Assembly: GCF_011058165.1 (NCBI RefSeq)
Contig: NZ_JAALEG010000019.1
Location: 1-64,000 of the forward strand
DNA from: Rhodococcus aetherivorans
GTDB taxonomy: Bacteria; Actinomycetota; Actinomycetes; Mycobacteriales; Mycobacteriaceae
DNA: 64,000 bases
Direction of reading: 5' to 3'
Positions 1 through 34,660 of the stretch are shown one piece after another. Numbering within the stretch: position 1 is the stretch's first letter; each line of letters begins with the position of its first letter. The translations under genes and the position numbers were made by a program. The notes under the pieces were generated by a model. It did not search any database. It was not told the origin of the DNA and saw only the letters and a program-made list of their open reading frames with translations.

Positions 1-71
1 CCCGCACCGACAAGCCCGCCGACAGTGTCGCCGAGGAGACCGGGGAGGTGACACCGGCCTTGACTGCCTGA
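1..71 (+). CDS. C-terminal end of an unidentified protein (partial)
   Basis: An open frame runs in from the left edge and stops at TGA 69-71. The visible tail is 22 residues, hydrophilic and acidic (it contains SVAEETGEV), with no recognisable motif. It lies 186 bp upstream of the excisionase-like gene on the same strand, so it probably belongs to the same mobile element. The tail does not resemble the end of a tyrosine integrase. Function cannot be assigned from what is visible. Confidence 0.5.
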   Translation, partial: RTDKPADSVAEETGEVTPALTA

Positions 72-257
72 CCCACTCCCGAGGAATCACGCGACGACGT
101 CGTACACCACCTCCAGGGACTTGACCATTCGAGTTACTGCAAGCGATCGATTTTGGCTGCGGACGCTCTCATTTGAACTGTCTCCCGCAGTAAGAAGCGA
201 GAGGGACAGCGCCGTTCCTCTCGGCACCGGTCGCCCTTGACCGATTAGGGATTGACG

Positions 258-461
258 ATGAGTAGTGGCGATACCGAATTGATGTCGCGGCGGAGGTTCG
301 CCCAGTGGATGGGCATCTCTTCGGCCGGGGAGATCAGGGGACGGACCGGCGGCAGAGAGTGGCCGCCTCACGTGCGGATCGGGCACAAGGTCTACTACCG
401 CCGCGAAGCGGTAGAGCAGTGGCTTCGGGAGCAGGAGCAGGCGGGTGGTCGCCGTGCCTGA
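258..461 (+). CDS. Excisionase-like MerR-type helix-turn-helix protein
   Basis: The product is 67 aa. It has an RRRFAQWMGIS helix-turn-helix start, a central PPHVRIGHKVYYRREAVEQWL stretch and a basic tail. That pattern of helix, R-x-G-x-K-x-Y-Y and an ExWL wing helix is typical of small MerR-like excisionase/AlpA DNA-binding proteins. ATG 258 is preferred over the upstream TTG 252 in the same frame. The stop overlaps the next small ORF by 8 bp, which points to translational coupling with the downstream replication genes. By family and place it is likely to direct excision or repress early genes of the element; that role is inferred. No integrase is visible in the window to pair it with. Confidence 0.7.
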   Translation: MSSGDTELMSRRRFAQWMGISSAGEIRGRTGGREWPPHVRIGHKVYYRREAVEQWLREQEQAGGRRA

Positions 462-597
462 CTTGCGGGCGATGCTCCCGAACATCGACGAGAAGACATA
501 CCGGGCGGCGAAAGAGCTGGTCGAACGCGCTCCCCGACTCAGCCAGGAACAGCTCGACTCGATCCAAGCTGTCCTCGCAGGAGGCGATCGACGGTGA
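454..597 (+). CDS. Small coupled ORF of unknown function (47 aa)
   Basis: This ORF starts at GTG 454 and stops at TGA 595-597. It encodes a 47-aa charged helical peptide (MPDLRAMLPN..., with a KELVERAPRLSQEQLDSIQ segment). An in-frame GTG at 445 is an alternative start. The case for a real gene is its packing: the start overlaps the end of the excisionase-like gene by 8 bp, and its stop shares the tetranucleotide GTGA with the HNH gene start at 594. Chains like this are typical of phage-type early operons. No domain is recognised. It could be an accessory of the excisionase or merely a coupling ORF. Confidence 0.55.
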   Translation: MPDLRAMLPNIDEKTYRAAKELVERAPRLSQEQLDSIQAVLAGGDRR

Positions 598-1163
598 ACT
601 CCGGAAAGAAAATCCGCCCCGCCGGACGGGGCAGGGCGGATCACCAGGTCGGCGAAACCTTCATCGGCGATTCTACGGACTTCGAGACGTGTTACGCGTG
701 CAATGTTATGCGGCCTCTCCGGGAGTTCGCGGTGGACCGCTGTAGGCCGTCTGGCTACCGCGGCGTGTGCGCGGCTTGTAGGGCCGAGTACGAACGTCGG
801 CGGTACCGGCGTGAGCGCGGGCAGATTCTTAGCCGCCAGCTGGAGTACCGGCGTGCCCATCCTCACCTCGGGCGGGAGGCGGGCTTCCGTACTCGCTGCC
901 GAAGACACGGACTGTCGCCGGTCATCGAGTCGTTCAACCGTGATGAACTGATCGCGGCGCACGGTGATCGGTGCTTTGACTGCGGCGGTCCTTGGGATCA
1001 GCTCGATCACCGTATCCCGGTCGCCGCGGGTGGATCGCACGACCTCGGCAATTGCCGCCCGATCTGTGCGCGATGCAACCGGAGGAAGCTCCACGCCTCC
1101 GACCGCCGTGCGATCGCGGACTTCCGGTCGGGTCGGGTCGTGTCGAGGGCAGTGGCGTTATGA
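594..1163 (+). CDS. HNH endonuclease
   Basis: The product is 189 aa and starts at GTG 594, inside the stop of the preceding small ORF. The N-terminal part has two CxxC pairs (Cys33/36 and Cys59/62) with a basic helix, a probable zinc finger. The C-terminal part (about 115-180) is an HNH/McrA-type nuclease: CFDCGG, then LDHRIPVAAGGSHDLGNC and ICARCNRRK, which supply the metal-binding His and zinc Cys residues. In phages, HNH nucleases often assist terminase or act as homing enzymes; here the gene sits between the excisionase-like and primase genes. The stop shares ATGA with the primase-polymerase start at 1160. The HNH fold is clear; the biological target is unknown. Confidence 0.85.
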   Translation: MNSGKKIRPAGRGRADHQVGETFIGDSTDFETCYACNVMRPLREFAVDRCRPSGYRGVCAACRAEYERRRYRRERGQILSRQLEYRRAHPHLGREAGFRTRCRRHGLSPVIESFNRDELIAAHGDRCFDCGGPWDQLDHRIPVAAGGSHDLGNCRPICARCNRRKLHASDRRAIADFRSGRVVSRAVAL

Positions 1164-3337
1164 CCGATGCGGACCACGACGCGATCTACTCCCGCGGCGC
1201 GCCGGTGTACCGGAGGGCAGGTTGGACTGCGCCGCTTCCTTTCCCGCCCAGGGAGAAGTTCCCCCCGCCCGCGGGGTGGAGTGGTCACGACGGGAGATGG
1301 CCGGACGACGCGCAGATCGGCCTGTGGGCACGAGAGCATCCAGCGTCGAGCAACCTCGGTCTTCGGCTCGACTATGGCATCGTCGGCATCGACGTCGACG
1401 CCTACGACGCCAAGACAGGAGGCCAGACGCTCAAGGAGGCCGAAACCCGCTGGGGGCCGCTTCCGCGCACGTACCGGTCGTCGTCGCGGCTCGACGACAA
1501 GACGAGCGGGATCAGAGTCTTTCGCGCCCCTGAGGACGTGATGTTCCAGAGCCGGATCGCGTTCCCCGACTCCGCGATCGGGGATGTCGAGATCGTTCAA
1601 CCGCATCACCGGTTCGTCATCACGTGGCCGTCGATCCACCCGAAGACCGGTCAGCAATACCGGTGGTTCGGGCCGGACGGACGTCTGCTGCCGGAAGGCG
1701 TGGTGCCGGTTGTCGAGGACCTCGCCGAGCTACCCGAGGCCTGGGTGAGCGCCCTCGCGAAGGATGCGGTGCGAGAGGAAGCGTTCGCCGGCTCGACTCC
1801 GCTCCAATCCGGTGTCGAATCCGCCGTCGACAGTGCGCTCTACGAGGAACTGCGCCATCTGCGAGACGACGGGGCACCCGACACGGTCGTCGCCGCGAGA
1901 CTGCAGCGGGCTCTTACAGACCTCAGTGACGGTGCAGGCAGCAGGTACGACGCCACCCGTGACCACGTTCTCGCCCTCATGCGGTACCACTCTTGCGGGC
2001 GGATTGGCGTCCCGCGGGCGTTGGAAGAGTTGTTCACCGTGTACGTCACCGAGGTCATGGACACCAGGTCGCCGCGGGTGGCCGAGGCGGAGTTCAAGCG
2101 GTTCACCGAGGGAGCGGCGCTGCTCGTGGCCGCCACCCCGCCCACGGACGCGTCGAGCGTTCTCGGGATCGAGCGGTCGGTTACGGGGGAGATCGGTGAG
2201 GGTGTCGCTTCGAGTCGCATGGAAGGTTCCGCGGAGCTGTCGTCGTGGGAGCCGGTGGACCTCGAGGATGTCCTCGCCGGGGATCGGGAGCTGCTGGTTC
2301 CGACCTTATTCGAGCGCGCCGACGGTGTGTGCTTGCTTTACCCTGGCATGGTCCACAGCTTCCACGGTGAATCGGAGTCCGGAAAGTCCCTGATCGCGCA
2401 GATCGAGTGCGTGCGCGTGCTCAAGCAGGGTCGAGACGTGCTCTACCTCGACTTCGAATCCGATGCGTCGTCCGTCGTCGAGCGACTGCTCGAATTCGGT
2501 GCGACCGCGGAGTCGATCAGGGCTCACTTCCACTACCACCAGCCGGAGGTGCAGCCGTCCACTCTGCAGGACCGGCGGGCATGGGAGCAGATGCTAACGG
2601 GCGCGTACGCATTGGCCGTCGTTGACGGGGTTACCGACGCGCTCGGGGTGTTCGGTTGCGCGACCAAGGACAACGATGAGGTCGCTCGGTGGATCAGGGC
2701 GGTACCGAAGGCGATCGCCGCCCGGACCGGGGCAGCGGTCGTGCTCATCGATCACGTCACCAAGGACACCAGCTCGCGGGGCCGCTTCGCAATCGGCGGC
2801 CAGTCGAAGATGGCGGGCCTCACCGGTGCCGCTTACACCGTGGAGGTTGCGCAGCCGCTGGGTCGCGGTCTGCGTGGTGAGGTCGTGCTGAGGGTCGGCA
2901 AGGATCGTCCGGGGGCCGTTCGGCCGCACTGTGGCAGCTTCCACAAGAAGGACCGGACCCAGGAAGCGGCCCGGGTCGTCATCGACTCGACGGCGTCTCC
3001 CCCCGTCGTGACCATCCATCCTCCGGGCGCAAGTCAGGACGGCGAGCCCAACGCCGACTCCGCGGAGTTCCGCCCCACTGCACTCATGGAGCGCATCAGC
3101 AAGCTGATCGAGAAGCAGCCCGGCGAACTCACCAAGACCAAGGCCGGTGACCTGGCCGGAGGGCAGAAGCAGAGCAGACTGCATGCGGCCGGTGTGCTGC
3201 TCAGTGAGGGCTTCCTCAGTTCTGAGAGAGGACGAGGCGGACACGACGTGCTGAGCTCGGTGAAGCCGTACCGCGAAGCGGACGATCCGCGGTCGGATCG
3301 GTTCCTGGCTGGGGGGAACCTCCAGTGCTCGAAGTGA
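1160..3337 (+). CDS. Primase-polymerase (PrimPol) / RecA-like ATPase replication protein
   Basis: The product is 725 aa from ATG 1160, which overlaps the HNH stop. The N-terminal third matches the bifunctional primase/polymerase domain: a WxxHPxSNLGLRLDYG entry, then the acidic pair Asp78/Asp80 in GIDVDAYD and a later QPHHRFVITWPS strand. A RecA/AAA-type ATPase follows, with Walker A GESESGKS near residues 403-410, LYLDFES, and a Walker B-like LAVVDGVTD near 485. The C-terminal region is helix-rich and may be a winged helix. Such fusions initiate replication of phage satellites and integrative plasmids. The last codons run into the GGTTCC array, a plausible origin. An upstream-extended frame exists, but the overlap and domain layout favour 1160. 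Confidence 0.85.
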   Translation: MTDADHDAIYSRGAPVYRRAGWTAPLPFPPREKFPPPAGWSGHDGRWPDDAQIGLWAREHPASSNLGLRLDYGIVGIDVDAYDAKTGGQTLKEAETRWGPLPRTYRSSSRLDDKTSGIRVFRAPEDVMFQSRIAFPDSAIGDVEIVQPHHRFVITWPSIHPKTGQQYRWFGPDGRLLPEGVVPVVEDLAELPEAWVSALAKDAVREEAFAGSTPLQSGVESAVDSALYEELRHLRDDGAPDTVVAARLQRALTDLSDGAGSRYDATRDHVLALMRYHSCGRIGVPRALEELFTVYVTEVMDTRSPRVAEAEFKRFTEGAALLVAATPPTDASSVLGIERSVTGEIGEGVASSRMEGSAELSSWEPVDLEDVLAGDRELLVPTLFERADGVCLLYPGMVHSFHGESESGKSLIAQIECVRVLKQGRDVLYLDFESDASSVVERLLEFGATAESIRAHFHYHQPEVQPSTLQDRRAWEQMLTGAYALAVVDGVTDALGVFGCATKDNDEVARWIRAVPKAIAARTGAAVVLIDHVTKDTSSRGRFAIGGQSKMAGLTGAAYTVEVAQPLGRGLRGEVVLRVGKDRPGAVRPHCGSFHKKDRTQEAARVVIDSTASPPVVTIHPPGASQDGEPNADSAEFRPTALMERISKLIEKQPGELTKTKAGDLAGGQKQSRLHAAGVLLSEGFLSSERGRGGHDVLSSVKPYREADDPRSDRFLAGGNLQCSK

Positions 3338-3426
3338 GTGGTTCCTGGTTCCCGGTTCCTATACCCGGGAACCGGGGAACCAGTTCCGACCGGTTCCGCA
3401 GGAACTACTGGGAACCAAGGGGAACC
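3300..3426. repeat. GGTTCC/GGAACC array, candidate replication origin
   Basis: Ten exact copies of one hexamer lie within 127 bp: GGTTCC at 3300, 3340, 3347, 3354 and 3392, and GGAACC at 3315, 3368, 3376, 3411 and 3421. AGTTCC (3382) and GGAACT (3401) are near copies. The three central GGTTCC units have a 7-bp period and face two GGAACC units across the centre, making a large inverted repeat. The AT-rich palindrome TTTTCGAAAA follows at 3434-3443. Iterons beside an AT-rich stretch next to the primase gene are the usual form of satellite and plasmid origins. A regulatory or terminator role is possible. Confidence 0.6.
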
Positions 3427-3571
3427 AGGTCCATTTTCGAAAAACGACCGCGCTTGTCCGTCCGCCGCTGCATGCCGGTCATAAGTCAAGTGCGGCGTAG
3501 TGCCGTCCAGGTGCGCGGACGAGCAGTAAGTAGTGACAGCGGAGTACACCCCGGTCGGAAGGAACAACAGC

Positions 3572-4195
3572 ATGTATGACACACAGGTGGTCGGCGACCT
3601 CGTCGACGAGACGCTCGGATCGATAAAACTGGTCGAATCCGCGCACAGTCCGCGGATCGAACCGCGCTGTCGGGTGTGCCGGGACGACCAAATCCGCGGG
3701 ACGGTGAACCAGATGCTGGCGCGGGGAGCGTCGTATGCGGGCATCGTCCGGGCTCTCACCGCGGAGGACACCACGTTCGGCGAGCAGAGGGTCACGGTCG
3801 ACTCGGTTCGTCGGCACTGCGAGCGGCACTTCCCGGTGCAGCAGGCGGCAGCGGCCACCTATCGGGAAGTCCTAGAACGCCGGGCCCGGGAGAACCATCT
3901 CGACTTCGCCGAGGGCTTGGCGGTCGCACTGACGCCGATCGCGATGTTCGAGGTCGTCATGCAGAAGGCTTTCGCGCACCTTGTCGACGATGACACCATC
4001 GTGAGTGTCGAGACCGGGTTGCGGGCCGCGGAGAAACTGTACGCCATCTCTCAGGAGACCTCTTCCCATCCGGATGTCGCCGACATGATGGTCCAGCTCC
4101 AGCAGATCACCGCGGCGGTGAAGGCGGTCGTGCCTCGCGAGATGTGGGGGCAGATTCTGCAGCAGCTGGACGAGTCGGTCGCTACCGAGGGATAG
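3572..4195 (+). CDS. Phage terminase small-subunit-like DNA-binding protein
   Basis: The product is 207 aa from ATG 3572, chosen over GTG 3533 because GGAAGGA lies about 8 bp upstream. The N-terminal half has a CRVCRDD pair and a helix-turn-helix-like stretch (VNQMLARGASYAGIVRAL) followed by VRRHCERHFP, a pattern often seen in small terminase or phage DNA-binding proteins that scan for packaging sites. The C-terminal half is a helical bundle suited to oligomerisation. No large terminase, portal or capsid gene follows. This fits a satellite that redirects a helper phage packaging machine. The TerS label rests on pattern and context, so another phage-type DNA-binding role remains possible. Confidence 0.5.
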   Translation: MYDTQVVGDLVDETLGSIKLVESAHSPRIEPRCRVCRDDQIRGTVNQMLARGASYAGIVRALTAEDTTFGEQRVTVDSVRRHCERHFPVQQAAAATYREVLERRARENHLDFAEGLAVALTPIAMFEVVMQKAFAHLVDDDTIVSVETGLRAAEKLYAISQETSSHPDVADMMVQLQQITAAVKAVVPREMWGQILQQLDESVATEG

Positions 4196-4318: not shown

Positions 4319-5404
4319 CTAGAGGTAAGGGAGCAGCGGAACGGTCTGCTGAGCGCTGTGAGCTTGTGAAAAGCCTCCGATGTCGGGATAGATCGAAGCC
4401 TCGTCCAAGCCCAGGAGGCCATTCTCGCCGGCTCTCCGGACGGCATCCTTGAGCGGTGGGGGCACCGCGATAAAGAAGACCTTCGCAAAGGTGTGGTCGA
4501 GACTGAATTCCCGTTGGTCAGAAGCCCATACGCTAGTTCCCCACAGCGGGATAGTTCCCCACGGCTCCTCACCCGTCGGGGGGAGAAGAAACTGGCTGTG
4601 CTGGCCGAGAACGCGCGAGGTCGGGGTACTGGGCGTCCAGCGTCCGACGCGTTCGCGCTGCCACTCGCTCGTCAACCAATCGATGAGACCTTCAAGCGTT
4701 TCCCTCTCAGCGCTCTTGGCCGAGAGCGAGAGCACGGATTGCTCATCGAATGCGACTACAATTCCGGTGTCAAGCGGATTGCTGCTGGCCGCGAACCACA
4801 ACGCGACAAGCACGCTGCTGCTGATGTCGAGCAAGTTGGTGGCAGCTCCGTGGTGTTGCAGCATGCCAAGCAACGAAAGATCGGAAAGCGGCCGGCCATC
4901 AACGATATCGAAACCCCGCTTGCGTGCTTGGTCGAGCAAATACCGCTGATACATCGCCACGTCCTCGCGATGGCCGATGCACCCTTCATCACGTGGTTGA
5001 TCGCGTCTAGGGTTGAAGCCGGTATCGATCTTCGCTCGCTCGAGGAGATCATGCACCTCGCGATATTCGCGGCTTTCGCGAGCAGACCACGGTTTGAGGA
5101 CACGGCGAGCAGCGCCGGTCTGGACCCCCCACTTGCCGTCGGATTGTCCCCGCCAGCCCGTGATTCCCTGGTCGGATGCTACAGAGATTTGCTCGGCCAC
5201 GTCGATGAACTCAGAAAGTGATTCGGGGGCCGGGATACGGCCGAAACGCTCGAGGTATGCGAACTTCCCGGAAATGTTGTGGTGGGCATACCAGTCGAGT
5301 TCGACGGCGCTATCCGGAAACGATTCCGGCTTGCCTTGTTCGTCGAGGCGGACTCGCTCCCTGCGGAACCGTGCTGGATTTGTTCCGCTCACGTTGGATG
5401 GCAT
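4319..5404 (-). CDS. FRG domain-containing protein, putative defence protein
   Basis: The product is 361 aa. The FRG family is named for an F/W-R-G motif, seen here as GWRGQSDGKWG at residues 83-93. The second hallmark is LLGMLQHHGAATNLLDISSSVLVALWFAAS (about 178-206), with the conserved H-G-x-x-T-x-x-L-D core. The C-terminus has the SIYPDIGGF motif that closes the domain. FRG proteins occur widely in mobile and defence loci; an ADP-ribosyltransferase-like activity has been suggested for the family, and the mechanism here is unknown. The gene is convergent with the TerS-like gene and followed upstream by another minus-strand gene, then the divergent hsd operon. The ribosome-binding site before the start is weak. 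Confidence 0.8.
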   Translation of the reverse strand: MPSNVSGTNPARFRRERVRLDEQGKPESFPDSAVELDWYAHHNISGKFAYLERFGRIPAPESLSEFIDVAEQISVASDQGITGWRGQSDGKWGVQTGAARRVLKPWSARESREYREVHDLLERAKIDTGFNPRRDQPRDEGCIGHREDVAMYQRYLLDQARKRGFDIVDGRPLSDLSLLGMLQHHGAATNLLDISSSVLVALWFAASSNPLDTGIVVAFDEQSVLSLSAKSAERETLEGLIDWLTSEWQRERVGRWTPSTPTSRVLGQHSQFLLPPTGEEPWGTIPLWGTSVWASDQREFSLDHTFAKVFFIAVPPPLKDAVRRAGENGLLGLDEASIYPDIGGFSQAHSAQQTVPLLPYL

Positions 5405-5475: not shown

Positions 5476-6036
5476 TCAGGTGCCGCCGTCGCCACCGTGC
5501 CCACCGTTCGCGTCACCGTCGCGTCCGATGAATCCGCCACGGCCCCCTGCGCCACCGGCTCCACCGGGCCAACCCCCGTGACCACCGTTGCCGCCGTTCG
5601 CGGTGCCGCTGCCGCCAACGGTGCCGCCGTCACCCCCGTGACCTCCATCGCCGCCATGGAAGCGCGAACGAAAGCCGGGCATCGTCCCCATGCCATTTGG
5701 AGTCTCGTAGTAGCCCGCGTAGTGGCGGGCGCGAATTCTGAAGCCGGCGCTCGCCGATGTCTCGCCTTGGAGCTCTCGCTCGGTGACTACCCAAGTCCTG
5801 ATCAGCCATGCGGTGACGAGTGCAAGAATCCCGAGCGCGATCGCGACGAGACCGACGCCGCCGTCAACGATGGTGGCGACCGTGACTCCGCTGAGGGTCG
5901 CGAGAGCGACAAGCGCGGCTCCTGTTCCTCGAGCACCTTCGAGCGCGTGACGTCGCATCAGCGACGGCATGCGTTCCGGCGGTGGAGGCTCCTCGGGTTC
6001 TTCGAACAGGAATCGCAGGCGGTCAATGTCTGTCAC
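5476..6036 (-). CDS. Two-TM membrane protein with PGRS-like glycine-rich tail
   Basis: GTG 6036 is chosen because GAGAGGA lies 8 bp upstream; the open frame extends further to 6093. The 186-aa product has an acidic/proline-rich N-terminus (EEPEEPPPPER), two hydrophobic helices (about 38-57 and 60-79), a soluble linker and a 60-residue tail (about 127-186) made almost entirely of GGxGG units such as GGDGGHGGDGG and GGAGGAGGRGG. The tail resembles mycobacterial PE_PGRS repeats, which are thought to form polyglycine-II sheets. The gene lies upstream of the FRG gene on the same strand with a 71-bp gap, so the two could be an operon. No family is assigned; an effector or anchoring role is speculation. 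Confidence 0.6.
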   Translation of the reverse strand: MTDIDRLRFLFEEPEEPPPPERMPSLMRRHALEGARGTGAALVALATLSGVTVATIVDGGVGLVAIALGILALVTAWLIRTWVVTERELQGETSASAGFRIRARHYAGYYETPNGMGTMPGFRSRFHGGDGGHGGDGGTVGGSGTANGGNGGHGGWPGGAGGAGGRGGFIGRDGDANGGHGGDGGT

Positions 6037-6304
6037 GGGCGAAATCCTCTCGTCGGCGAGCGAGGTCGTCGCGGCGAAGTTACGGCAGGACACCGACAGG
6101 GCGATCGACGACTCGAAGGGTGCAAACCCCGAGGGCAGCTGGCGAGCCCCCTAGCTAAGCAGACCCCGAAACTCTTGCATGTAACGCGACACCCCGATCG
6201 CCGACAACACCGTTGAGGGCGAACCGTACAGCCTGCTCGAGGTCATCCCCCCTTGGCCGGGGTAACTTCATCCAGACTGACCGACGAGGAGACCTACAAT
6301 CACC
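6037..6304. promoter_or_regulatory. Divergent intergenic region upstream of the hsd operon
   Basis: These 268 bp separate the minus-strand glycine-rich gene from hsdM and must hold promoters for both directions. GAGGAGACC lies just before the hsdM start. I see no convincing -35/-10 pair, controller-protein operator or other gene. Confidence 0.4.
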
Positions 6305-8281
6305 ATGGCAAAGACCAATGCCGACCTGATCTGGAGCATCGCGAACCTGCTCCGCGGCCCCTACCAGCCGAACCAGTACGGCGACGTGATCTTGCCGTTC
6401 ACGATCCTGCGCCGGCTCGACTGCATCCTCGAGCCGACCAAGGACCAGGTCCTCGCCGAGTACAAAAAGCTGCAGGGGCTCAAGGTCGACCCCGGCGTGG
6501 TGCTGAAGACCAAGTTCAAGCTGCCGTTCTACAACACCTCTCGTTGGACGTTCGCCTCGTTGGTGTCCGACCCGGAAGGGGTCGCCGACAACTTGATCGA
6601 CTACATCGAGCGGTTCTCGCCGAACGTGCGCGACGTGTTCGAGGGCTTCCGGATGCCCGATCTGATCGCCGACCTACAGAAGTCGGACCGGTTGTATCTG
6701 ATCGTCAAAGAGTTCGCGGCCGTCGATCTGCATCCGAAGGTCGTCTCCGGACACGATATGGGCTACATCTTCGAAGAGCTCATCCGCAAGTTCGCCGAAT
6801 CGAACAACGCCCAGGCCGGTGACCACTTCACCCCGCGTGAGGTGATCGCGCTGATGGTGGACATCCTGTTCGACACCGCTGACGACGCGCTGACCAAGCC
6901 CGGCACCGTACGCACCATCTACGATCCCGCCGCGGGCACCGGCGGGATGCTCTCCACGGCCTACGACCACCTGATCGAGATGAACCACAGCGCCCGCCCG
7001 GTACTGTATGGGCAGGAGATTAACCCGCGCTCGTACGCCATGTGCAAGTCCGACATGATCATCAAGGGTCAGGACGTCGACAACATCTACCTCGGCGACA
7101 CCCTTACCGACGACGGACACTCCGGACGGCACTTCGACTTCCTGCTGTCCAACCCGCCGTTCGGGGTCGAGTGGAAGACCCAGCAGAAGGTCGTGACCGA
7201 TGAGTACGAGCAGCGCGGCTTCGCCGGACGCTTCGGCCCCGGACTGCCCCGCGTCTCGGACGGGTCGCTGCTGTTTCTGCTGCATCTGATCTCGAAGATG
7301 CAGCCTGTCCGCGGCGGTGAGGGCGGCAGCCGCCTCGCGATCGTGCTCAACGGCTCGCCGCTGTTCACTGGCGGAGCCGGATCGGGGGAGTCGAACATCC
7401 GGCAGTGGATCATCGAGAACGACCTGCTCGACGCGATCATCGCGCTGCCGACAGACATGTTCTACAACACCGGCATCTCCACCTACATCTGGATTCTCGA
7501 CAACAACAAGCCCGAGCCGCGCCGCGGTAAAGTCCAGCTGATCAACGGCGTCAACATGTTCGGCAAGATGCGCAAGTCTCTCGGCTCCAAGCGCAAGTAC
7601 CTGCGGCCCGAGGACATCGAACGCCTCTGCAGGCTCTACGACCGGTACCGCAACGAGAAGGGCACCGACACCCACCCCGCCCACTCGAAGGTCCTCCGCG
7701 GCGAGGAGTTCGGCTACGCCACCGTCACCGTCGAACGGCCCCTGCAACTGCGGTTCGAGCCGACCGAGGACAAGATCGACGAGGTCCTGGCGCAGAAGAG
7801 CATCGCCAAGCTCAAGGACGGCGAGCAGGCTGTGATCCGCAAGGCCCTCAAGACCCTCGTCGGCTGGACCTGGACGAACCGCGACGCCTTCGTCGACGAA
7901 CTCAAGGCGGCGTTGCGCGACGCCGGCATCACCCGGCCCGGTGCACCGCTGGTGAAGACGATCTGGTCGACGATCGGCGAGCACGACCCCGAGGCCGACA
8001 TCGTCACCAACTCCAAGGGCGACCCCGAACCCGACCCGGCGCTGCGCGACACCGAGAACGTGCCGCTGACCGAGGACATCGAGGAGTACTTCGCCCGCGA
8101 GGTGCTGCCGCATGTGCCGGATGCTTGGATCGACCACGACAAGACCAAAATCGGCTACGAGATTCCCTTCACCCGGCACTTCTACCGGTACGTGCCGCCG
8201 AGGCCGCTCGATGAAATCCAGAAGGACCTGCGGGCCCTCGTCTCCGAGATTCAGGCCATGCTCTCGGAGGTCGGCGCGTGA
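6305..8281 (+). CDS. hsdM: Type I restriction-modification DNA methyltransferase subunit M
   Basis: The 658-aa product has the full HsdM layout: an N-terminal helical domain (NADLIWSIANLLRGPY), the HFTPREV segment, SAM-binding motif I DPAAGTGGML (about 207-216) and catalytic motif IV NPPF (about 283-286), which marks an N6-adenine methylase. It methylates the recognition site together with HsdS and, with HsdR, forms the restriction complex. The start ATG has GAGGAGACC upstream. The stop shares GTGA with hsdS at 8278, so stoichiometry is probably set by translational coupling. At 658 aa it is at the long end of the family. It is intact with no frameshift. Confidence 0.96.
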   Translation: MAKTNADLIWSIANLLRGPYQPNQYGDVILPFTILRRLDCILEPTKDQVLAEYKKLQGLKVDPGVVLKTKFKLPFYNTSRWTFASLVSDPEGVADNLIDYIERFSPNVRDVFEGFRMPDLIADLQKSDRLYLIVKEFAAVDLHPKVVSGHDMGYIFEELIRKFAESNNAQAGDHFTPREVIALMVDILFDTADDALTKPGTVRTIYDPAAGTGGMLSTAYDHLIEMNHSARPVLYGQEINPRSYAMCKSDMIIKGQDVDNIYLGDTLTDDGHSGRHFDFLLSNPPFGVEWKTQQKVVTDEYEQRGFAGRFGPGLPRVSDGSLLFLLHLISKMQPVRGGEGGSRLAIVLNGSPLFTGGAGSGESNIRQWIIENDLLDAIIALPTDMFYNTGISTYIWILDNNKPEPRRGKVQLINGVNMFGKMRKSLGSKRKYLRPEDIERLCRLYDRYRNEKGTDTHPAHSKVLRGEEFGYATVTVERPLQLRFEPTEDKIDEVLAQKSIAKLKDGEQAVIRKALKTLVGWTWTNRDAFVDELKAALRDAGITRPGAPLVKTIWSTIGEHDPEADIVTNSKGDPEPDPALRDTENVPLTEDIEEYFAREVLPHVPDAWIDHDKTKIGYEIPFTRHFYRYVPPRPLDEIQKDLRALVSEIQAMLSEVGA

Positions 8282-9603
8282 ACTGGCCGACGTATGAGAC
8301 TTATAGAGAAGTCGAAACCCAGTGGCTTGGCCAAATTCCTGATCATTGGGACATCCGCAACCCGAAGACACTCTTTGTACTTCACCGGGAACCTGCCCAT
8401 CCGGAAGACCGGCAGCTCACAGCGTCGCAGAGCGACGGCGTCGTCTATCAGGATGAGTTCATGGAAACCCGGGGTACTCGCGTGGTGCAGGTAATCGAAG
8501 GCCAGGCGGGGTTGAAGCATGTGGCTGCCGGGGACTTCGTCATCAGCCTAAGAAGCTTTCAAGGTGGCATCGAGTACAGCCCAGCGCCCGGGAAGATCAG
8601 TCCGGCGTACACGATCCTCACGCCTGGTCGTGAAGTTGTCGATCGGTATTTCGTCCATCTTTTGAAGTCCAGCGGCTTTGTTCAGGAACTACGAAGTACC
8701 TCGAATCAATTGCGAGACGGACAAGCGCTGGGACTTGAGCATTTCGCTCAAGTACGGGTTCCGTTGCCTCCGAGTTCTGAACAAGTCGCCATCGCAGGTT
8801 TCCTAGATCGCGAGACTTCCAGGATCGACGCGCTGATCGGCAAGCAGGAACAGCTCATCGCCACCCTGCGCGAGGACCGCACCGCCACCATCACGCTCGC
8901 CGTCACCAAGGGCCTCGATCCCGACGTCGGAGTAAGGGAGTCCGGCGTCGAGTGGCTGGGAAAGATTCCACAGCATTGGGTGCCTGCGCGCTTGAAAAGC
9001 GTCATGGTGTCTATTGACTCGGGTACAAGTGTTAACGGCGCAGATATTCCCGCAGAGCCGGGAGAGGTGGGCGTGCTCAAGACGAGCTGTGTCTCAGGGG
9101 GATGGTTCAACCCGACTGCGAACAAGACGGTTGTCGATGAGGACATTTCCCGGGTGTCTTGTCCCGTCCGGAAAGATACGTTGATCGTCAACCGTGCAAA
9201 CACCCCACTACTCGTGGGGTCTGCGGGCTACGTTGCGCACGCCCCGAGGAACCTTTACTTATCGGATAAGCTTTGGCAGGTCCGCTTCGAGGGTGCGCTT
9301 GCATCCTTCATCTACTACTGGACACGGACGGACACCTATCGATCGCAGATAGCAGCGAGTTGCGTCGGAGCCAGTTCGAGCATGCAGAACCTTTCGATGG
9401 GCGATTTCCGAAATTTTGCCCTTGCCCTTCCTCCCGAGAAAGAGCAAGCTGCCCTCGTCGATTTTCTCGATGAGCGCTGCAGGACGATTGACTCCCTAAT
9501 CGACAAAGCCGCAGAGGTCATCGTGACGATGCGTGAGTACCGGTCAGCGCTGATCACCGCGGCAGTGACCGGCAAGATCGACGTGCGGCAGGCGGTCGCA
9601 TAG
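8278..9603 (+). CDS. hsdS: Type I restriction-modification specificity subunit S
   Basis: The 441-aa product consists of two target-recognition domains, each ended by a coiled-coil spacer. The first half-site region runs to about residue 190 and ends in DRETSRIDALIGKQEQLIATL. The second starts with SGVEWLGKIPQHW and ends in RTIDSLIDKAAEVIVTMREYR with the common ALITAAVTGKIDV tail. This two-fold layout is that of a full-length HsdS recognising a bipartite DNA site; the sequence recognised cannot be read from the protein. Codon and base use in the recognition domains is less GC-rich than in hsdM, as expected for exchangeable specificity modules. The start GTG overlaps the hsdM stop. No spare hsdS copy or inversion repeats are seen. 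Confidence 0.95.
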   Translation: MNWPTYETYREVETQWLGQIPDHWDIRNPKTLFVLHREPAHPEDRQLTASQSDGVVYQDEFMETRGTRVVQVIEGQAGLKHVAAGDFVISLRSFQGGIEYSPAPGKISPAYTILTPGREVVDRYFVHLLKSSGFVQELRSTSNQLRDGQALGLEHFAQVRVPLPPSSEQVAIAGFLDRETSRIDALIGKQEQLIATLREDRTATITLAVTKGLDPDVGVRESGVEWLGKIPQHWVPARLKSVMVSIDSGTSVNGADIPAEPGEVGVLKTSCVSGGWFNPTANKTVVDEDISRVSCPVRKDTLIVNRANTPLLVGSAGYVAHAPRNLYLSDKLWQVRFEGALASFIYYWTRTDTYRSQIAASCVGASSSMQNLSMGDFRNFALALPPEKEQAALVDFLDERCRTIDSLIDKAAEVIVTMREYRSALITAAVTGKIDVRQAVA

Positions 9604-9605
9604 CG

Positions 9606-10532
9606 GTGGGGCGAGCGCAAACGATCCAGATCTATCTTCCCTCAGGCGATCCGGCGGGGCTCCGCGTGGCAAATCTGACCACACGTACGGTCCGGGTGTT
9701 CGAGGTGCCCCGGTCGCTCCTCAGCGAGTTCCTGAAGCGGCCCGAGGCGGGACAAGTGGGGGTCTACTACCTAATCGGGGCGGGGGAGGACGAGACGGCA
9801 CGGTGTTACATAGGGCAGTCCGGGAATGTCGGTGTGCGGTTGCAGCAGCACACCGGGACGAAGGACTTCTGGACGAAGGCACTTGTGGCGGTCTCACTGA
9901 CCAACGAGTGGACCTCCACCCACGTCGCGTACCTGGAGTGGTTATCGCTCAACCGGGCCACCGGCGCGGATCGGTACATCCTGCTCAACGGCAATCAGGC
10001 CTCCAATCCGCACACGCCCGAACCTCTGGAGGCCGATTGTCAGGAGTTTCTGGAGACCATAGCGGTGCTACTCGCCACCCTCGGCGCTCCAGTACTCGAA
10101 CCGGTCCAGCGACGTCCGCCCGAGTCTGCCGTCGACCTAAGTGCGGAGGCGGAGCCGGTGTGGCTGTTTTTCCGGGAGCGCAAGTGTGATGCGACCGGCT
10201 ATCAGACTCCGGAAGGGCTGCTCGTGCTCGCCGGTTCGAGGGGTCGCCCCGAGCTACGACCGTCCGCTCCGGCCAGCATAGGTCGGCAGCGCGATGCGCT
10301 ACACGCTGACGGAATTATCCGGCTGAGTGACACCGAACTGGTGTTTCTCAAGGATCACTTGTTCTCCAGCCCGTCCGCTGCCGGGAGCGTGGTCGTTGGA
10401 GGCAGCAACAACGGACGAATCAGTTGGCGCAATGCCGACGGCCAGTCGATCAATGATCTGGAAGCGCAGACGTTGGCCGCCACGACAGAGGACTGGAGAG
10501 CTGATGGCCCAGCATCACGAGTCTGCTTTTGA
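9606..10532 (+). CDS. GIY-YIG nuclease with DUF4357-like C-terminus, inside the hsd operon
   Basis: The 308-aa product carries a GIY-YIG nuclease core at about 52-115: G-V-Y-Y (52-55), CYIG (67-70), Arg78, His82, and a candidate catalytic Glu at 111 in YLEWLSL. The C-terminal third (SPSAAGSVVVGGSNNGRISW) resembles the DUF4357 domain common in such proteins. The start GTG lies 2 bp after the hsdS stop, and the end overlaps the hsdR start by 29 bp, so it is translated as part of the R-M operon. It could be an extra nuclease or an accessory of the complex. Its role is not known from the sequence. Confidence 0.8.
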   Translation: MGRAQTIQIYLPSGDPAGLRVANLTTRTVRVFEVPRSLLSEFLKRPEAGQVGVYYLIGAGEDETARCYIGQSGNVGVRLQQHTGTKDFWTKALVAVSLTNEWTSTHVAYLEWLSLNRATGADRYILLNGNQASNPHTPEPLEADCQEFLETIAVLLATLGAPVLEPVQRRPPESAVDLSAEAEPVWLFFRERKCDATGYQTPEGLLVLAGSRGRPELRPSAPASIGRQRDALHADGIIRLSDTELVFLKDHLFSSPSAAGSVVVGGSNNGRISWRNADGQSINDLEAQTLAATTEDWRADGPASRVCF

Positions 10533-13500
10533 GACCGAGCTCTGCGAGTACCTGGCCGCGCACGGCTGGCTGTACTCGCCGACCGACGCCGGCTACGACC
10601 GGGACCTCGCGCTGTTCCCGGAGGACGTGTTCGGATGGCTGGCCGACACGCAACCGGAGCAGCTCGCGAAGCGGGTCAAGCCGGACCTGACCGGACAAGC
10701 GGTGACGAAAGCTCGGCAGGGCGTGCTCACAACCCTGGTGAAGGCCCTGGACGCCGATCCGAAGGCCAACGGTGGCACCCTGTCGGTGCTGAGGCGCGGG
10801 TTCAAGGACCTGAACGCCCAGTTCTCGATGTGCCAGTTCCGGCCGAACACCTCACTCAACGCCACCACCGCGAAGCGGTACGAGTCGGTGCGTCTGCGGG
10901 TGATGCGACAGGTGCACTATTCGACGAAGCACAACAACAGCATCGATTTGGTGTTCTTCGTCAACGGTATCCCGGTGGCGACTGCCGAGCTCAAGACCGA
11001 CTTCACGCAGAACATCACCGATGCCGTCCTGCAGTACAAGCACGACAGGTTGCCGAAGGGGGAGCCGCTGCTGGCGTTTGGCTCCCGAGCCCTGGTGCAC
11101 TTCGCCGTGTCCAACAGTGAAGTGCAGATGACCACCAAGCTCGCTGGCAAGGACACGGTCTTCCTGCCGTTCAATCGAGGGAACAATGCGCACGCGGGCA
11201 ACCCTCCGAATCCGATCGGCTCACCGACTGCGTACCTGTGGGAGACGATCCTGCAGCGCGACACCTGGCTCGACATCCTCGGGCGGTTCATGCACCTGCA
11301 GATCACCGAGAAGATCGATCGGGTCTCGGGGAAAAAGAGTCGCAAGCAGACGATGCTGTTCCCGCGCTTCCACCAGTGGGAGGCAGTCACGAAGTTGATC
11401 GACGCGGCCCGCACCGAGGGACCGGGACACCGTTACCTGATCCAGCACTCCGCCGGTTCTGGCAAGACCAACAGCATCTCGTGGCTCGCGCACCGGTTGT
11501 CCGTGCTGCACGACGAGGAAAGCTCGGCGGTGTTCGACTCGGTCATCGTCATCACCGACCGCAACGTTCTCGATGCGCAGTTGCAGGAGGCGATCCGGCA
11601 AATTGATCGCACTCCCGGTGTGGTGGCGCACATCGACGGGCTGGGCAGCTCGAAGTCTCAGCTGCTCGCCGACGCCCTCGAGGGCGGCACGAAGATCATC
11701 ATCGTCACCATCCAGACCTTCCCCTACGCGCTTGAGCTGATCCGCAACCAGGCCAAACTGAAGGGGAAGAACTTCGCGGTCATCGCCGATGAGGCGCACT
11801 CATCTCAGGCCGGGGAAGCCTCTAAGCGTCTGAAATCGGCCCTGACGGCCACGGAGATCGATGAACTCGCCGACGGCGGCACCGTGGATGCCGAGGATGT
11901 CCTGGCGGCGGAGATGACCGCACGGGCGCAGGCGAAGAACCTGTCGTTCTTCGCGTTCACCGCCACCCCGAAGAACAAGACCCTCGAACTGTTCGGCCGG
12001 AAAGGCCCGGACGGCACGCCACAGCCGTTCCACCTGTACTCAATGCAGCAGGCGGTCGAGGAGGGCTTCATCCTCGACGTGCTCAAGAACTACACCCCCT
12101 ACAAGACCGCGTTCCGGCTCACCCACAACGGCCGTTCCTACGAGTCGGAGACCACGGCGGCCGCGGGCACCGTCGCGGTCACCGGCAGCACCGACGGCGA
12201 GCTGGTGGACAAACAGGCGGCGATCAAATCGGTGATGAACTGGGTCAAGCTGCACCCGACGAACATCTCCCAGAAGGTCGGCATCATCGTCGAGCACTTC
12301 CGGGGGAACGTCGCCTGGCGGCTCGACGGCCGCGCCAAGGCCATGGTAGTCACCTCCTCGCGTAAGGCGGCAGTGCGCTACAAGCTCGCCTTCGACACCT
12401 ACCTCGCCAACCACGGTTACACGGACGTCGCCGCGCTTGTGGCGTTCTCCGGCGACGTCACCGACCTCGACTTGGGCGTCGAGAAGGCCACCGAGACGTC
12501 GATGAACCCGGGTCTGAAGGGACGTGATCTGCGGGAGGCCTTCGCCACCGACGAGTACCAGGTGATGCTGGTGGCGAACAAGTTCCAGACCGGGTTCGAC
12601 CAGCCGCTGCTGGTGGCGATGTACGTCGACAAGAAGCTCTCCGGCGTCGCCGCGGTGCAGACCCTCTCGCGGCTCAACCGCACCGCCCCGGGCAAGGACC
12701 AGACCTTCGTGCTGGACTTCGCCAACACCGCCGAGGAGATCGTCGAGGCGTTCGAGCCGTACTACCAGGCCACCACCCTCGCCGATGTCACCGACCCGAA
12801 CATCGTGCACACCACGATGGCCAAGCTCGACGCCGCCGGAGTCTACCTCGACTCCGAAATCGACGGCCTGGTCGCCGACTACCTCGCCGACAAGGGCAAC
12901 AACGCGCTGACCAAGTGGATCACCCCGGCGAGGGATCGGTTCCGCGACCGGGAACGCACCGCCACCGAGGCCGGAGACACCGTCGCGCTCGACGAGCTCG
13001 AGATGTTCCGCAAGGACGTGGGTACGTTCCTGCGCCAATACGACTTCCTGTCCCAGATCGTCGACTACGAGGACCCGTCGCTCGAGAAGCTGTCGATCTA
13101 TCTGCGCCACCTCGCCCCGCAGATCACCCGTGAGCAGCTCAATCACGAGATCGACCTGTCCACCGTGAACTTCGACTACATCGCCCAGCACGAGCAGGCC
13201 ACCACCGACGGCAAGCTCACCGGCGACGTCGCCCTTGCACCGGCCAAGGAGGCCGGGACCGGGACGGTGCGTGATCCGGAGATGGTGGCTCTCGAGGAAG
13301 TCATCGAGAAGATCAACGATCTGTTCGACGGCGATCACCCCGACTCGAGCGTGCGCAACGTGGTCACCCACATCCGGGACCGGCTCGAAGAATCCGAGAC
13401 GTTGCAGCAGCAGGCGCAGAACAACAGCATGCAGCAGTTCTCGGCAAGCCCCGATCTGCACAGCGAGTTCCTCGCCGCGGTGATCGGCGCAATGGACTCG

Positions 13501-13605
13501 TCGGCGGACCTGTCCGCCCAGATACTCAACAACCAGGGCCTGTCGCAGAAGCTGCTGGAGGCGTTGTTACCGGCCGTCTACCGGCGGCTGAAGGATATCG
13601 CTTAG
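10504..13605 (+). CDS. hsdR: Type I restriction endonuclease subunit R
   Basis: The 1033-aa product starts at ATG 10504 inside the end of the GIY-YIG gene. Domains in order: a PD-(D/E)XK nuclease with the TAELKTD motif (Glu-x-Lys near residue 161), an SF2 translocase with Walker A AGSGKTN (about 317-323), DEAH (about 429), the FFAFTATP motif III and an AVQTLSRLNRT motif VI, then a helical C-terminal domain that docks on the M/S core. It cleaves unmodified DNA after ATP-driven translocation. All motifs are intact. The last 277 bp recur as a degenerate copy at 21,917-22,192. The ORF can be extended upstream, but the GHGWLYSPTDAGYD-type N-terminus fits a start at 10504. Confidence 0.95.
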   Translation: MAQHHESAFETELCEYLAAHGWLYSPTDAGYDRDLALFPEDVFGWLADTQPEQLAKRVKPDLTGQAVTKARQGVLTTLVKALDADPKANGGTLSVLRRGFKDLNAQFSMCQFRPNTSLNATTAKRYESVRLRVMRQVHYSTKHNNSIDLVFFVNGIPVATAELKTDFTQNITDAVLQYKHDRLPKGEPLLAFGSRALVHFAVSNSEVQMTTKLAGKDTVFLPFNRGNNAHAGNPPNPIGSPTAYLWETILQRDTWLDILGRFMHLQITEKIDRVSGKKSRKQTMLFPRFHQWEAVTKLIDAARTEGPGHRYLIQHSAGSGKTNSISWLAHRLSVLHDEESSAVFDSVIVITDRNVLDAQLQEAIRQIDRTPGVVAHIDGLGSSKSQLLADALEGGTKIIIVTIQTFPYALELIRNQAKLKGKNFAVIADEAHSSQAGEASKRLKSALTATEIDELADGGTVDAEDVLAAEMTARAQAKNLSFFAFTATPKNKTLELFGRKGPDGTPQPFHLYSMQQAVEEGFILDVLKNYTPYKTAFRLTHNGRSYESETTAAAGTVAVTGSTDGELVDKQAAIKSVMNWVKLHPTNISQKVGIIVEHFRGNVAWRLDGRAKAMVVTSSRKAAVRYKLAFDTYLANHGYTDVAALVAFSGDVTDLDLGVEKATETSMNPGLKGRDLREAFATDEYQVMLVANKFQTGFDQPLLVAMYVDKKLSGVAAVQTLSRLNRTAPGKDQTFVLDFANTAEEIVEAFEPYYQATTLADVTDPNIVHTTMAKLDAAGVYLDSEIDGLVADYLADKGNNALTKWITPARDRFRDRERTATEAGDTVALDELEMFRKDVGTFLRQYDFLSQIVDYEDPSLEKLSIYLRHLAPQITREQLNHEIDLSTVNFDYIAQHEQATTDGKLTGDVALAPAKEAGTGTVRDPEMVALEEVIEKINDLFDGDHPDSSVRNVVTHIRDRLEESETLQQQAQNNSMQQFSASPDLHSEFLAAVIGAMDSSADLSAQILNNQGLSQKLLEALLPAVYRRLKDIA

Positions 13606-13931: not shown

Positions 13932-14813
13932 GTGACTGTCGACACAGACCAGACGCCGGACGACGGCGGCGACGAGCAGACCTCCGAAACGCACGACGAC
14001 CAGCGGCCTGACGCCGAAGCGACCGATACCGAAGCTGCACCGAAAGAGCCTCTCTCGCCGAGATGGCCTCGCACGACGACCGTCAGTAGCAGCCTTATCC
14101 AGACGGTCCGCGACAACCCCCTGTGGGTGTTAGGCCTCCTCCCGCTAGTGCTTGTGTGTTTCCGGTTGATCTATGTGTCGCGTGGAGACACCGAGGTTAT
14201 GAGGGCGCTCCTCGCCAGCATCGATATCCTCCGAATCGTCCTCGCGACGGTGTTGCCCGTGATGCCAGTCCTTATGTTCTGGGGCATAGTCCTACTAATT
14301 GACCGCTGGCGAATCACCCGCAAGGAGGAGCGGCCTGCAATGCCAGCGTTGCTACCGGCGTTTGTCATCACACTTCTACTGGTTTCGCTCACTGGCATGA
14401 CTATCTTGACGGCAGTGGCTTCGATAGCGTCCGTCATGGTTGTGGCTGCTCAAATCTGGCGCGCTCAGCGTAAGGGCGGTCCGAGGAGTTACCGCCTCAA
14501 AGCGACGGAGGCGATAGGTCTTGCCGTCCTAACATGTCTGACCGCGAGCGTTGGGCCGTGGCTACCCACCGAAGCAATCAAGCTGACCGACGGATCGCAG
14601 TATGTCGGATACGCCCTGTCGGCGGACGCGCGATGGTTTCAATTCCTCGACGACGACAACGTCCTGCACGTTGAAGCGAGCACCAGCGTCGAGAGCCGGA
14701 CTCCGTGCACAAAGGTAGGCAACTGGTACGTCGACACGACCTTTCGAGCGTTGCAAAGGCACCGGGGCCAAGAGGTGGCTCCGAGGTGCCCAGAACAGCC
14801 TTCTCAGGAGTAG
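13932..14813 (+). CDS. Predicted multi-pass membrane protein of unknown function
   Basis: The 293-aa product starts at GTG 13932. The first 45 residues are acidic and disordered (DQTPDDGGDEQTSETHDD). Four or five hydrophobic segments follow between about 65 and 215, including PLWVLGLLPLVLVCF and LPAFVITLLLVSLTGMTI. A C-terminal soluble domain of about 75 residues contains two Cys (TPCTKVGNWY and APRCPEQ) that could pair outside the membrane. No family is recognised. It lies between the hsdR/relic block and the comM-dprA scar, and its base composition is a little lower in GC than its neighbours. It may be cargo of the element; a role in defence is not supported by any motif. Confidence 0.55.
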   Translation: MTVDTDQTPDDGGDEQTSETHDDQRPDAEATDTEAAPKEPLSPRWPRTTTVSSSLIQTVRDNPLWVLGLLPLVLVCFRLIYVSRGDTEVMRALLASIDILRIVLATVLPVMPVLMFWGIVLLIDRWRITRKEERPAMPALLPAFVITLLLVSLTGMTILTAVASIASVMVVAAQIWRAQRKGGPRSYRLKATEAIGLAVLTCLTASVGPWLPTEAIKLTDGSQYVGYALSADARWFQFLDDDNVLHVEASTSVESRTPCTKVGNWYVDTTFRALQRHRGQEVAPRCPEQPSQE

Positions 14814-15136: not shown

Positions 15137-16162
15137 TCACATTATCTGGGTACGAGCGCAGTCATGGTGCATCGAGAGACCAGTGGCGGCACCGTCTAGG
15201 GGAAAACGACAAACCGGGCAGAGCGGAGCGGGACCGTGCACGGGGCCAATGATCGCGGTCTGTGACACCGCGATGCCCCTGTGAATCGCCGCCTCACAAG
15301 TCCTGCGATCTTGTTTCGGGTCCGGTTTCTGCTGCTGCTGCCACGTAGGACTCCAGTCGCATTCACCTTCTTGACGGAGCTTGTCTCGGTCGCGCTGGGG
15401 CACGATGTACACGTGTCCCGATCGGTCGACGATGGGGAGCAAGTTTCCGCTCGCGGCCCCTGCGATCGCGTCGTCCAAAGTTATTCCGAGTAGTGGAACG
15501 AGCTTGGGATGCCAGTCGCCGCAGGGTCGCCCACCGGTGACGGGGCACTTCTGGAATCCGCTCCAGTCGCACCGCGTCATTTCGATCTCGCGAAGTGCCG
15601 TGGCGGTTGCAGTGCCTGCCGGTGGCATCCCCGCTGACCAGTCTGTGTCGTTCACCCGAATTGAAGGGATTTTGTGCAGCCAGGTCGGCTCCCGTTGCGA
15701 ATCCGACGTCCACAGCGGCACGATGCCAGCATTCGCGGTTTTCGTCGTCCGGCTACGTGCCGCGGTGAGCTTCAGACGAGAATGCTGCACTTCGGCCCCG
15801 ACCAGTACCGTGCCCTTAACCAAGACATCGACGCGAGTCCCCCCGTTTGTCTTGTACTCGGGGACAGCCTCGTAGCCCACGCGATCAGCCGCCCGGCACC
15901 AGTATTCCTTCTGGCGTTTGTGCTCGTCGGTTTCGGGAGCTACGTCGTGAGTAGCGCTGCAACCCGAGCCGGAGAAGTGCACTGCGAAGTACCTGTCACC
16001 GCGTCGACGAATGAACATCTCTCCACCGCCCGCCTCCATACACTCGAGGGTGTGGTCGCCTCTGTCGATGTTGCCGTGGAGCTCACCAATCCGCGCCATT
16101 TCCGCAGGCGTGAGAGCCGAGAGGTCCACGGTCGTGCCTTCGAGTCGCGCCAGGGTGCTCAT
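15137..16162 (-). CDS. CoiA-like (PD-(D/E)XK) nuclease family protein
   Basis: ATG 16162 is chosen because GGAGG lies 5 bp upstream; the frame extends to ATG 16234 without a good ribosome site. The 341-aa product has the layout of competence CoiA-like nucleases: a HKRQKEYW helix (81-88), then the acidic residues Glu101, Asp112 (RVDVLV) and Glu124-x-Gln126 (GAEVQHSRL), followed by ANAGIVPLWTSD. The C-terminal part carries CPVTGGRPCGDWHP and CPVCRFPL cysteine clusters that could bind zinc. In Firmicutes CoiA takes part in transformation; homologues on actinobacterial mobile elements have no established role. The gene lies next to attR, at the right end of the element, facing the comM-dprA scar. 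Confidence 0.6.
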   Translation of the reverse strand: MSTLARLEGTTVDLSALTPAEMARIGELHGNIDRGDHTLECMEAGGGEMFIRRRGDRYFAVHFSGSGCSATHDVAPETDEHKRQKEYWCRAADRVGYEAVPEYKTNGGTRVDVLVKGTVLVGAEVQHSRLKLTAARSRTTKTANAGIVPLWTSDSQREPTWLHKIPSIRVNDTDWSAGMPPAGTATATALREIEMTRCDWSGFQKCPVTGGRPCGDWHPKLVPLLGITLDDAIAGAASGNLLPIVDRSGHVYIVPQRDRDKLRQEGECDWSPTWQQQQKPDPKQDRRTCEAAIHRGIAVSQTAIIGPVHGPAPLCPVCRFPLDGAATGLSMHHDCARTQIM

Positions 16163-16364
16163 CCGTACCTCCAGTGGCGCGGCTCTGAAGGAGTTGCCGT
16201 CGCCTTTACGCAGTATGACGAACGGGTACGACATTCCCGATATGCCGCGATCTGGTCGTCAGCGCCAATAACGATTGTGCTGCGCGCCGATGACCGATCA
16301 CCGCGCACGTAAGACATGTGCGAAGAAATAAGAGATGCAGGCGTGTCGCGGACGGGTCCTACTG

Positions 16365-16475: not shown

Positions 16476-16502
16476 AGGGTTCGAAACCCTCCGCGCCCAC
16501 CA
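16476..16502 (+). other. tRNA 3' end fragment, probable attR of the mobile element
   Basis: The segment holds a T-arm (AGGGTTCGAAACCCT), the acceptor 3' strand CGCGCCC and the ACCA end. No D-arm or anticodon arm precedes it, so it is not a whole tRNA gene. Integration into a tRNA 3' end leaves exactly this duplicate at the far side of the element. The complete tRNA, with an acceptor beginning GGGCGCG, should lie left of the window at attL. The tRNA identity cannot be told from this fragment. Confidence 0.75.
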
Positions 16503-16563
16503 GGGGAGTGGCGGTGAAAGACCTGGTCAGCGGCCGGTCCCTCACCGCTCGAGGGGGATTCTG

Positions 16564-34238: not shown

Positions 34239-34660
<422 letters not shown>

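Follow-up and report, generated by a model that had tools for sequence, protein, structure and literature searches.

The DNA analysed here (the window) is a stretch of 64,000 nucleotides from Rhodococcus aetherivorans that forms the start of contig C110 in a genome assembly of 216 contigs. From an insertion sequence (IS) end at its first base, it carries a small helix-turn-helix (HTH) gene, a replication block, an array of short repeats, a gene of the family phrog_2807 and a group of defence genes, up to an attachment site derived from a tRNA gene (table 1). The HTH gene, a 47-aa open reading frame (ORF), an HNH nuclease gene and a gene for a PrimPol fused to an ATPase follow one another as an earlier note on this DNA had described, with overlaps at GTGA (594–597) and ATGA (1160–1163). 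We found that this block is the early and replication region of a separate integrative element of about 18.9 kb without the IS (element B). This element occupies tRNA-Val(TAC) and stands next to a prophage of about 52 kb, as computed from coordinates (prophage A), with which it forms a tandem.

Table 1. Features of element B and its borders in the window
Feature	Position	Strand	Remarks
IS256-family (IS1164-like) insertion, 3' end	1..126	+	contig end; outside the element proper
8-base target duplication ATTCGAGT	127..134	.	second copy beside the left end of the IS on C175
67-aa HTH protein	258..461	+	HTH_17 18.6 bits (cut-off 27); phrog_66 E 0.0025
47-aa ORF (50 aa from GTG 445)	454..597	+	no family match
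HNH / endonuclease VII-like nuclease	594..1163	+	Pfam HNH 5.3e-8; phrog_1035 endonuclease VII 1.9e-21
Replication protein, PrimPol with a fused RecA/KaiC-like ATPase	1160..3337	+	Prim-Pol 6.4e-20; AAA_25 3.8e-11
10 GGAACC/GGTTCC hexamers	3300..3426	.	likely origin iterons (predicted function)
phrog_2807 protein, function unknown	3572..4195	+	207 aa from ATG; 220 aa from GTG 3533
FRG-domain protein (PADLOC PDC-S15)	4319..5404	-	
ORF; two hydrophobic segments and a tail rich in glycine (our reading)	5476..6093	-	no Pfam match
HsdM, type I methyltransferase	6305..8281	+	
HsdS, type I specificity subunit	8278..9603	+	
DUF4357 protein (PADLOC PDC-S14)	9606..10532	+	
HsdR, type I restriction subunit	10327..13605	+	coordinates use the first start; the real one is probably downstream
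ORF	13932..14813	+	no family match
CoiA-nuclease-like protein	15137..16234	-	20.2 bits, just under the cut-off of 20.3
attR, 3' end of tRNA-Val(TAC)	16477..16504	+	24-nt core 16477-16500 also present in attL, in the internal att and in the tRNA gene of G003

The repeats behind the PrimPol gene, which had been noted earlier as an iteron array, exceed what base composition would give. The 145 nt from 3291 to 3435 contain ten GGAACC/GGTTCC hexamers; none of 2000 dinucleotide shuffles of this stretch reached ten (mean 0.48, maximum 3), by which chance was rejected as their source, and nowhere else in the window do 145 nt contain more than two. The array stands where the origin of a PICI, a type of phage satellite, is expected, that is, after PrimPol, and such repeats are also found in the sister element described below, at locus L063 and on plasmid pKRAD02. 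Among 17 loci compared, post-PrimPol repeats lay above all background windows of the same locus at only four (the window, L125, L063 and L070), and at each of the remaining 13 at least 13 background windows reached the post-PrimPol repeat count. Elsewhere, a 500-nt stretch of locus L130 (contig C3 of genome G244), situated away from the PrimPol-relative gene, holds up to 16 GAACC/GGTTC motifs and is perhaps another origin.

At the right end, chromosomal homology with a genome of the same genus (G003) starts at position 16477, within the G003 tRNA-Val(TAC) gene, and the earlier claim of a tRNA-derived attR is thereby borne out. The 28 nt from 16477 to 16504 are identical to G003, 26 of them inside the tRNA gene, and ARAGORN reported no whole tRNA over the window. 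Just right of attR, in chromosomal sequence, 22 codons on the minus strand (16567–16632) match the C-terminus of the integrase of B at 73%, and this fragment was probably, to judge from the match, left behind by an element that had occupied this tRNA earlier. An ordinary chromosomal gene for RNase P RNA of class A (265.7 bits) lies farther along, at 34245–34658 (+).

The left side of the element was recovered from the target-site duplications of IS elements. The IS256 end at the start of the window recurs in eight further places of the genome, with 124–127 bases identical at 100%, and contig C132 carries a 91% copy downstream of a Transposase_mut C-terminus. Plasmid records matching this end were almost all from Rhodococcus (17 of 18); the eight matches listed were 91–93% identical, and half of them (4/8) were annotated as IS256. 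A search with a guessed sequence pattern for the IS256 left end returned no match, because the two ends of the IS differ. The far end of contig C175 is an IS256 left end followed by ACTCGAAT, the complement of ATTCGAGT in the window. As a control on this pairing, all seven left ends found (7/7) paired over 8 of 8 bases with exactly one of the nine right ends, and two of the nine right ends had no partner. Contig C163 carries a 95% counterpart of the upstream flank of G003 that terminates in an intact tRNA-Val, after which come the integrase of A, about 16 kb with DUF3846, HNH, ArdA-like, ERF and replication-relaxation genes (the Replic_Relax gene belonging to element A), and the left end of an element that we read as IS1380-like. 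The IS1380-like left ends on C163, C24 and C210 pair with right ends on C175, C54 and C136 through the duplications CTGA, CTCA and TTCA, respectively; these are of 4 bases and each is weak alone, and the argument lies in the mutual consistency of the three pairs. The order of the contigs, as reconstructed from these short duplications across contig ends, is C163, IS1380-like element, C175 (reversed), IS256 and the window. The IS256 copy lies in the intergenic gap between a 139-aa gene and the 67-aa HTH gene of the window and disrupts no predicted gene, and it may separate the replication genes from an early promoter or alter their expression.

Contig C175 holds an internal att, in which the 24-nt core lies at 2651–2674 with more of the 3' half of the tRNA on one side. 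The side of prophage A carries genes for TerS (phrog_606), TerL, portal, protease, capsid and tape measure. Thus the att site of B is also occupied by A, in tandem and at the same tRNA-Val core; B was probably resident first and A inserted later on the tRNA side. Outside the att sites no exact match over 16 nt was found between A and B, and a packaging site common to both was rejected on that ground. Two proteins of A were noticed in passing. Its TerL (L077:8810–11026, minus strand, on C175) contains an intein at about residues 193–465 (Intein_splicing 4.5e-15), and the halves on either side match known terminases. Its portal protein (L077:6792–8750, minus strand, on C175) is fused at the C-terminus (about 488–617) to a 2H phosphoesterase domain with the motifs HVTL at 520 and HLTL at 598, which matches 2_5_RNA_ligase2 (7.8e-10) and the anti-CBASS protein Acb1 (2.9e-6; 27.5 bits, cut-off 27); a putative virion-borne anti-CBASS activity of this portal would be striking if true.

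The earlier note had proposed looking left of the window for a tyrosine integrase and a complete tRNA gene, and both are there. Beside the internal att on C175, B encodes an integrase of the tyrosine type (phrog_1 1.4e-78; Phage_integrase 1.3e-24) together with a CI-like repressor of 180 aa (phrog_4583 'transcriptional repressor' 1.9e-7; Pfam HTH_3 below cut-off) and a divergent 88-aa Xis-like protein (phrog_66 3e-4; no match in Pfam), the assignments of Xis and repressor being weak to moderate profile matches; the intact tRNA-Val lies farther left. A 139-aa protein in this region has no family match. The order of B is therefore att, integrase and CI-like repressor (both toward att), then in the divergent direction the Xis-like gene, the 139-aa gene, IS256, HTH, 47-aa ORF, HNH, PrimPol/ATPase, iteron-like origin and phrog_2807 gene, and last the FRG and type I restriction-modification (R-M) cargo and attR. 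The 67-aa HTH gene had been called excisionase-like: it is of HTH type and matches phrog_66 weakly, but its HTH_17 score is below cut-off, and on these profile matches it is a weak candidate; the 88-aa gene on C175, to which a gene of the sister element is 40% identical, appears the better one.

In the cargo, the product of the ORF at 5476–6093 is possibly a membrane partner of the adjoining FRG protein. We found no structural gene in B in scans of 18 ORFs by Pfam and of 12 ORFs, other than the FRG and R-M genes, by PHROGs, nor in tblastn searches with actinophage structural proteins, and the two profile scans showed no lytic gene among the same ORFs. Terminase, portal, capsid and tail genes were not found within B's own att sites and are present in A, so that the earlier statement that the block has no capsid, portal, large terminase or tail genes holds for B; no packaging or capsid-remodelling gene was recognisable in it either. 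A Terminase_3 search of the genome itself found nothing and was the wrong probe, since it is PHROGs that recognises the TerL of A. Scans of viral contigs with the query proteins P0004, P0005 and P0003, each alone, gave no match, and a search of genome contigs with P0005 gave one match of 43 residues only. AICEs and other conjugative elements are recognised by an FtsK/TraB-type translocase or a relaxase, and neither was found among the 18 ORFs of B scanned with Pfam. The earlier note had held that structural genes left of the window would make the block a prophage, and conjugation genes an AICE. Structural genes do lie there, but they belong to the tandem prophage A, beyond the internal att and a second integrase, and no conjugation gene was found among the 18 scanned ORFs of B.

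The gene at 3572–4195, which had been described as TerS-like, encodes a protein of the phage type phrog_2807 (9.1e-55). Its match to terminases was never significant (nothing in Pfam, chance matches only in a sequence search of the PDB), and hhalign against the TerS of prophage A gave a probability of 0.4%. Two AlphaFold models of the protein were poor (mean pLDDT 40.9 and 56.2), and fold searches with them reached small-terminase structures at E 6–8 only; the sole significant viral fold match of these predicted structures was an uncharacterised Gordonia phage protein. Identity as TerS is thus unsupported, not disproved, by profiles, hhalign and poor fold models, and the sister element lacks the gene; as the earlier note itself had foreseen for a lack of terminase matches, this weakens the satellite reading. 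Relatives of phrog_2807 were found in 210 of 50,697 phage records, all from Mycobacterium, Mycolicibacterium, Gordonia or Rhodococcus, and the 40 such records listed were of 135–161 kb. In phages Finch, E3, LinStu and Stormageddon the relative is downstream of recombination and nuclease genes, and in the parts of the Finch record examined, 71 kb separate it from the terminase gene. Among bacteria the family is rare: of 397 genomes of the order, two had phrog_2807, namely our own and one with a weak match of 44 positions. Predicted helices and the annotation 'helix-turn-helix' in Stormageddon allow the guess that the protein might bind DNA. The viral contig whose phrog_2807 relative is closest to that of the window (51%) also encodes, at L089:11225–19152, three consecutive very large proteins, all of phrog_25255, of unknown function.

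Relatives of the PrimPol protein (E <= 1e-20) were present in 46 of 401 genomes of the family, including our own, and in 17 of 31 genera. The 27 loci that we examined were made up of a single locus from each of seven other matched genomes and 20 regions picked mostly by score; several of these are cut by contig ends, and the sample excludes G660, G206 at its second place, G157, G369, G673 and weaker matches. By local tblastn (E <= 1e-3) an integrase match was found in 25 of the 27 (all except L066 and L131, and weak in L132; for L067, L138 and L140 the query was called an integrase by eye). At the same threshold, TerL matched in one locus (L131), protease in three, tape measure in one and portal in none, and since such pairwise searches miss diverged structural genes, absences at these loci are evidence of a lower grade. 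A capsid match without TerL was found in four loci (L064, L069, L128 and L143), in L064 by its own protein; L064 combines an integrase, a related ATPase and Phage_capsid (3e-20). No locus (0/27) gave a tblastn match to the phrog_2807 gene.

The best relative is a sister element in another genus (G480), which is 19.2 kb long and has the gene layout of B with defence cargo. Its likeness to B is 63% in the integrase, 54% in the ATPase region and 40% over 63 aa in the Xis-like protein; a repressor-like gene has the same position as in B and barely aligns (41% over 34 aa, E 0.007). Eight GAACC repeats follow its PrimPol gene, above all 180 background windows. In contrast to B, the sister has its att in tRNA-Ser(TGA) instead of tRNA-Val and carries HmaC, HmaB and HmaA (E 9.5e-266, 0 and 6.5e-224) instead of type I R-M; tblastn found in it no match to the HNH, 139-aa, 67-aa HTH, 47/50-aa and phrog_2807 genes of B. 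It is closed by a 23-nt repeat at 25538 of the joined L125/L148 stretch, and an alternative boundary lies farther on, at 40971 of the same stretch, where 18 nt match tRNA-Ser. This island (L125:6290–19900 plus L148:1–5660) also contains a resolvase gene, assigned by eye, and, ahead of the right repeat, a weak match to ShosT. Two other systems share parts of B. The Kineococcus plasmid pKRAD02 has an ATPase 47% identical over half the query with small genes ahead of it, as in B, and five GGAACC/GGTTCC after the ATPase gene, above all 111 background windows; unlike B it is a free plasmid of 12.9 kb, typed as non-mobilizable, whose gene table names a recombinase-family gene and no integrase. In the temperate Gordonia phage Hibiscus, the order integrase, repressor, excise and later PrimPol is that of B, and temperate actinophages with PrimPol have a PrimPol N-terminus 39% identical to that of B, whereas such phages possess a full structural module.

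According to passages of the PICI literature, these satellites have the integrase and repressor genes in one direction, and xis, a fused primase/replication gene and origin-like repeats in the other, with cargo at the far end (PMC6092414). The divergent regulators of B, with the integrase on the repressor side and xis and primase/replication on the other, match this order and orientation, and the tRNA-derived att and the lack of any structural gene found are likewise PICI-like. The satellite-like reading of the earlier note is partly supported. In passages of the published criteria, the att sites of PICIs are never occupied by prophages, whereas that of B is used by A, and PICIs are typically 12–15 kb. 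Some PICIs have a terS homologue; none was recognised in B, with a poor structure model, and B carries type I R-M as cargo. We therefore claim that B works like a PICI and do not file it as one, because its att site and size depart from those of PICIs and its induction and packaging are predicted. The Mycobacterium candidates were defined, in the relevant part of PMC10654092, by an integrase plus a major capsid gene, SatelliteFinder being the other route to them. These and phiRv1-like elements have, in the accounts excerpted, an integrase, replication genes and, for tyrosine integrases, a tRNA att, as does B; the candidates have a capsid gene, however, and none was found in B. The likeness to phiRv1 itself is a suggestion of the earlier note.

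Judging from gene order, att sites, protein families, the links through IS duplications and the sister element, we consider it most likely, at about an even chance, that B behaves as a phage satellite of the PICI type. Its repressor would keep B silent until a phage signal relieved repression; Int and Xis would then excise it, the PrimPol/ATPase would replicate it from the repeats, and phage particles would carry it, while the R-M and FRG genes would protect the host against other phages. On this reading B would depend on a helper phage.

The strongest rival, which we regard as possible and somewhat improbable, is an integrative plasmid-like defence island, a replicon with its own Int and Xis moved by ordinary or lateral transduction, transformation or the conjugation of another element, without adaptation to a helper. 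Such an island would have its own replicon and integrase and be independent of phages; B has a replicon-like module and an integrase, and its independence is conjectural. This reading draws on pKRAD02 as the closest free replicon, with its related ATPase and repeats, and on the lack of a recognised packaging gene, and the adjoining prophage could move B by lateral transduction (for the principle, see the pertinent section of PMC12829572). The divergent repressor and Xis with an integrase at att nevertheless form a control region of phage type, comparable to that of Hibiscus, and the related loci are integrase-linked, four of them with the capsid matches without TerL. That B is the deletion remnant of a temperate actinophage, which kept its lysogeny and replication arm and gained R-M later, would agree with the early-arm order of Hibiscus and with the actinophage-like PrimPol N-terminus, but the ATPase half is nearest to a plasmid and small elements, and the sister, of near-equal size but from a different genus and with a different tRNA and cargo, likewise gave no structural matches, which makes this unlikely. 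A single prophage of about 70 kb comprising A and B, with the window block as its far arm, was rejected as very improbable, for in spite of their adjacency in the reconstructed order there is an internal att with the full 24-nt core and a second integrase beside it, the sister is bounded by its own repeats, and G+C differs (0.55–0.61 for A on C175 against 0.60–0.68 for B in the window, the first 2 kb of B on C175 having 0.59).

Returning to the PICI-type satellite, a bolder version of it is doubtful at best: B and its sister would be an unnamed family of Mycobacteriales satellites of about 19 kb, with a plasmid-type PrimPol/GGAACC replicon and exchangeable defences, in which B would have captured phrog_2807, an early gene of large Finch/E3/Bxz1-type myoviruses, and would exploit or sabotage such phages with it, the neighbouring prophage maybe serving as a second vehicle.

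In the relevant portions of the literature, actinobacterial satellites are known from Streptomyces (PMC10690885) and Mycobacterium (PMC10654092), their experimental validation lags (PMC10023795), and defence-carrying satellites are known as well (PMC9122126, PMC11389934). These portions do not describe an element of B's type, which may already be listed in the large survey PMC10085698. With no capsid gene, yet a complete core of integrase, repressor, xis, PrimPol and origin-like repeats and swappable defences (type I R-M in B and Hma in its sister), B falls outside a definition based on capsid genes. If B is a satellite, its dependence on a helper could be tested within a single strain, thanks to the tandem prophage, and B would be a further vehicle that moves restriction and other defences between genera.
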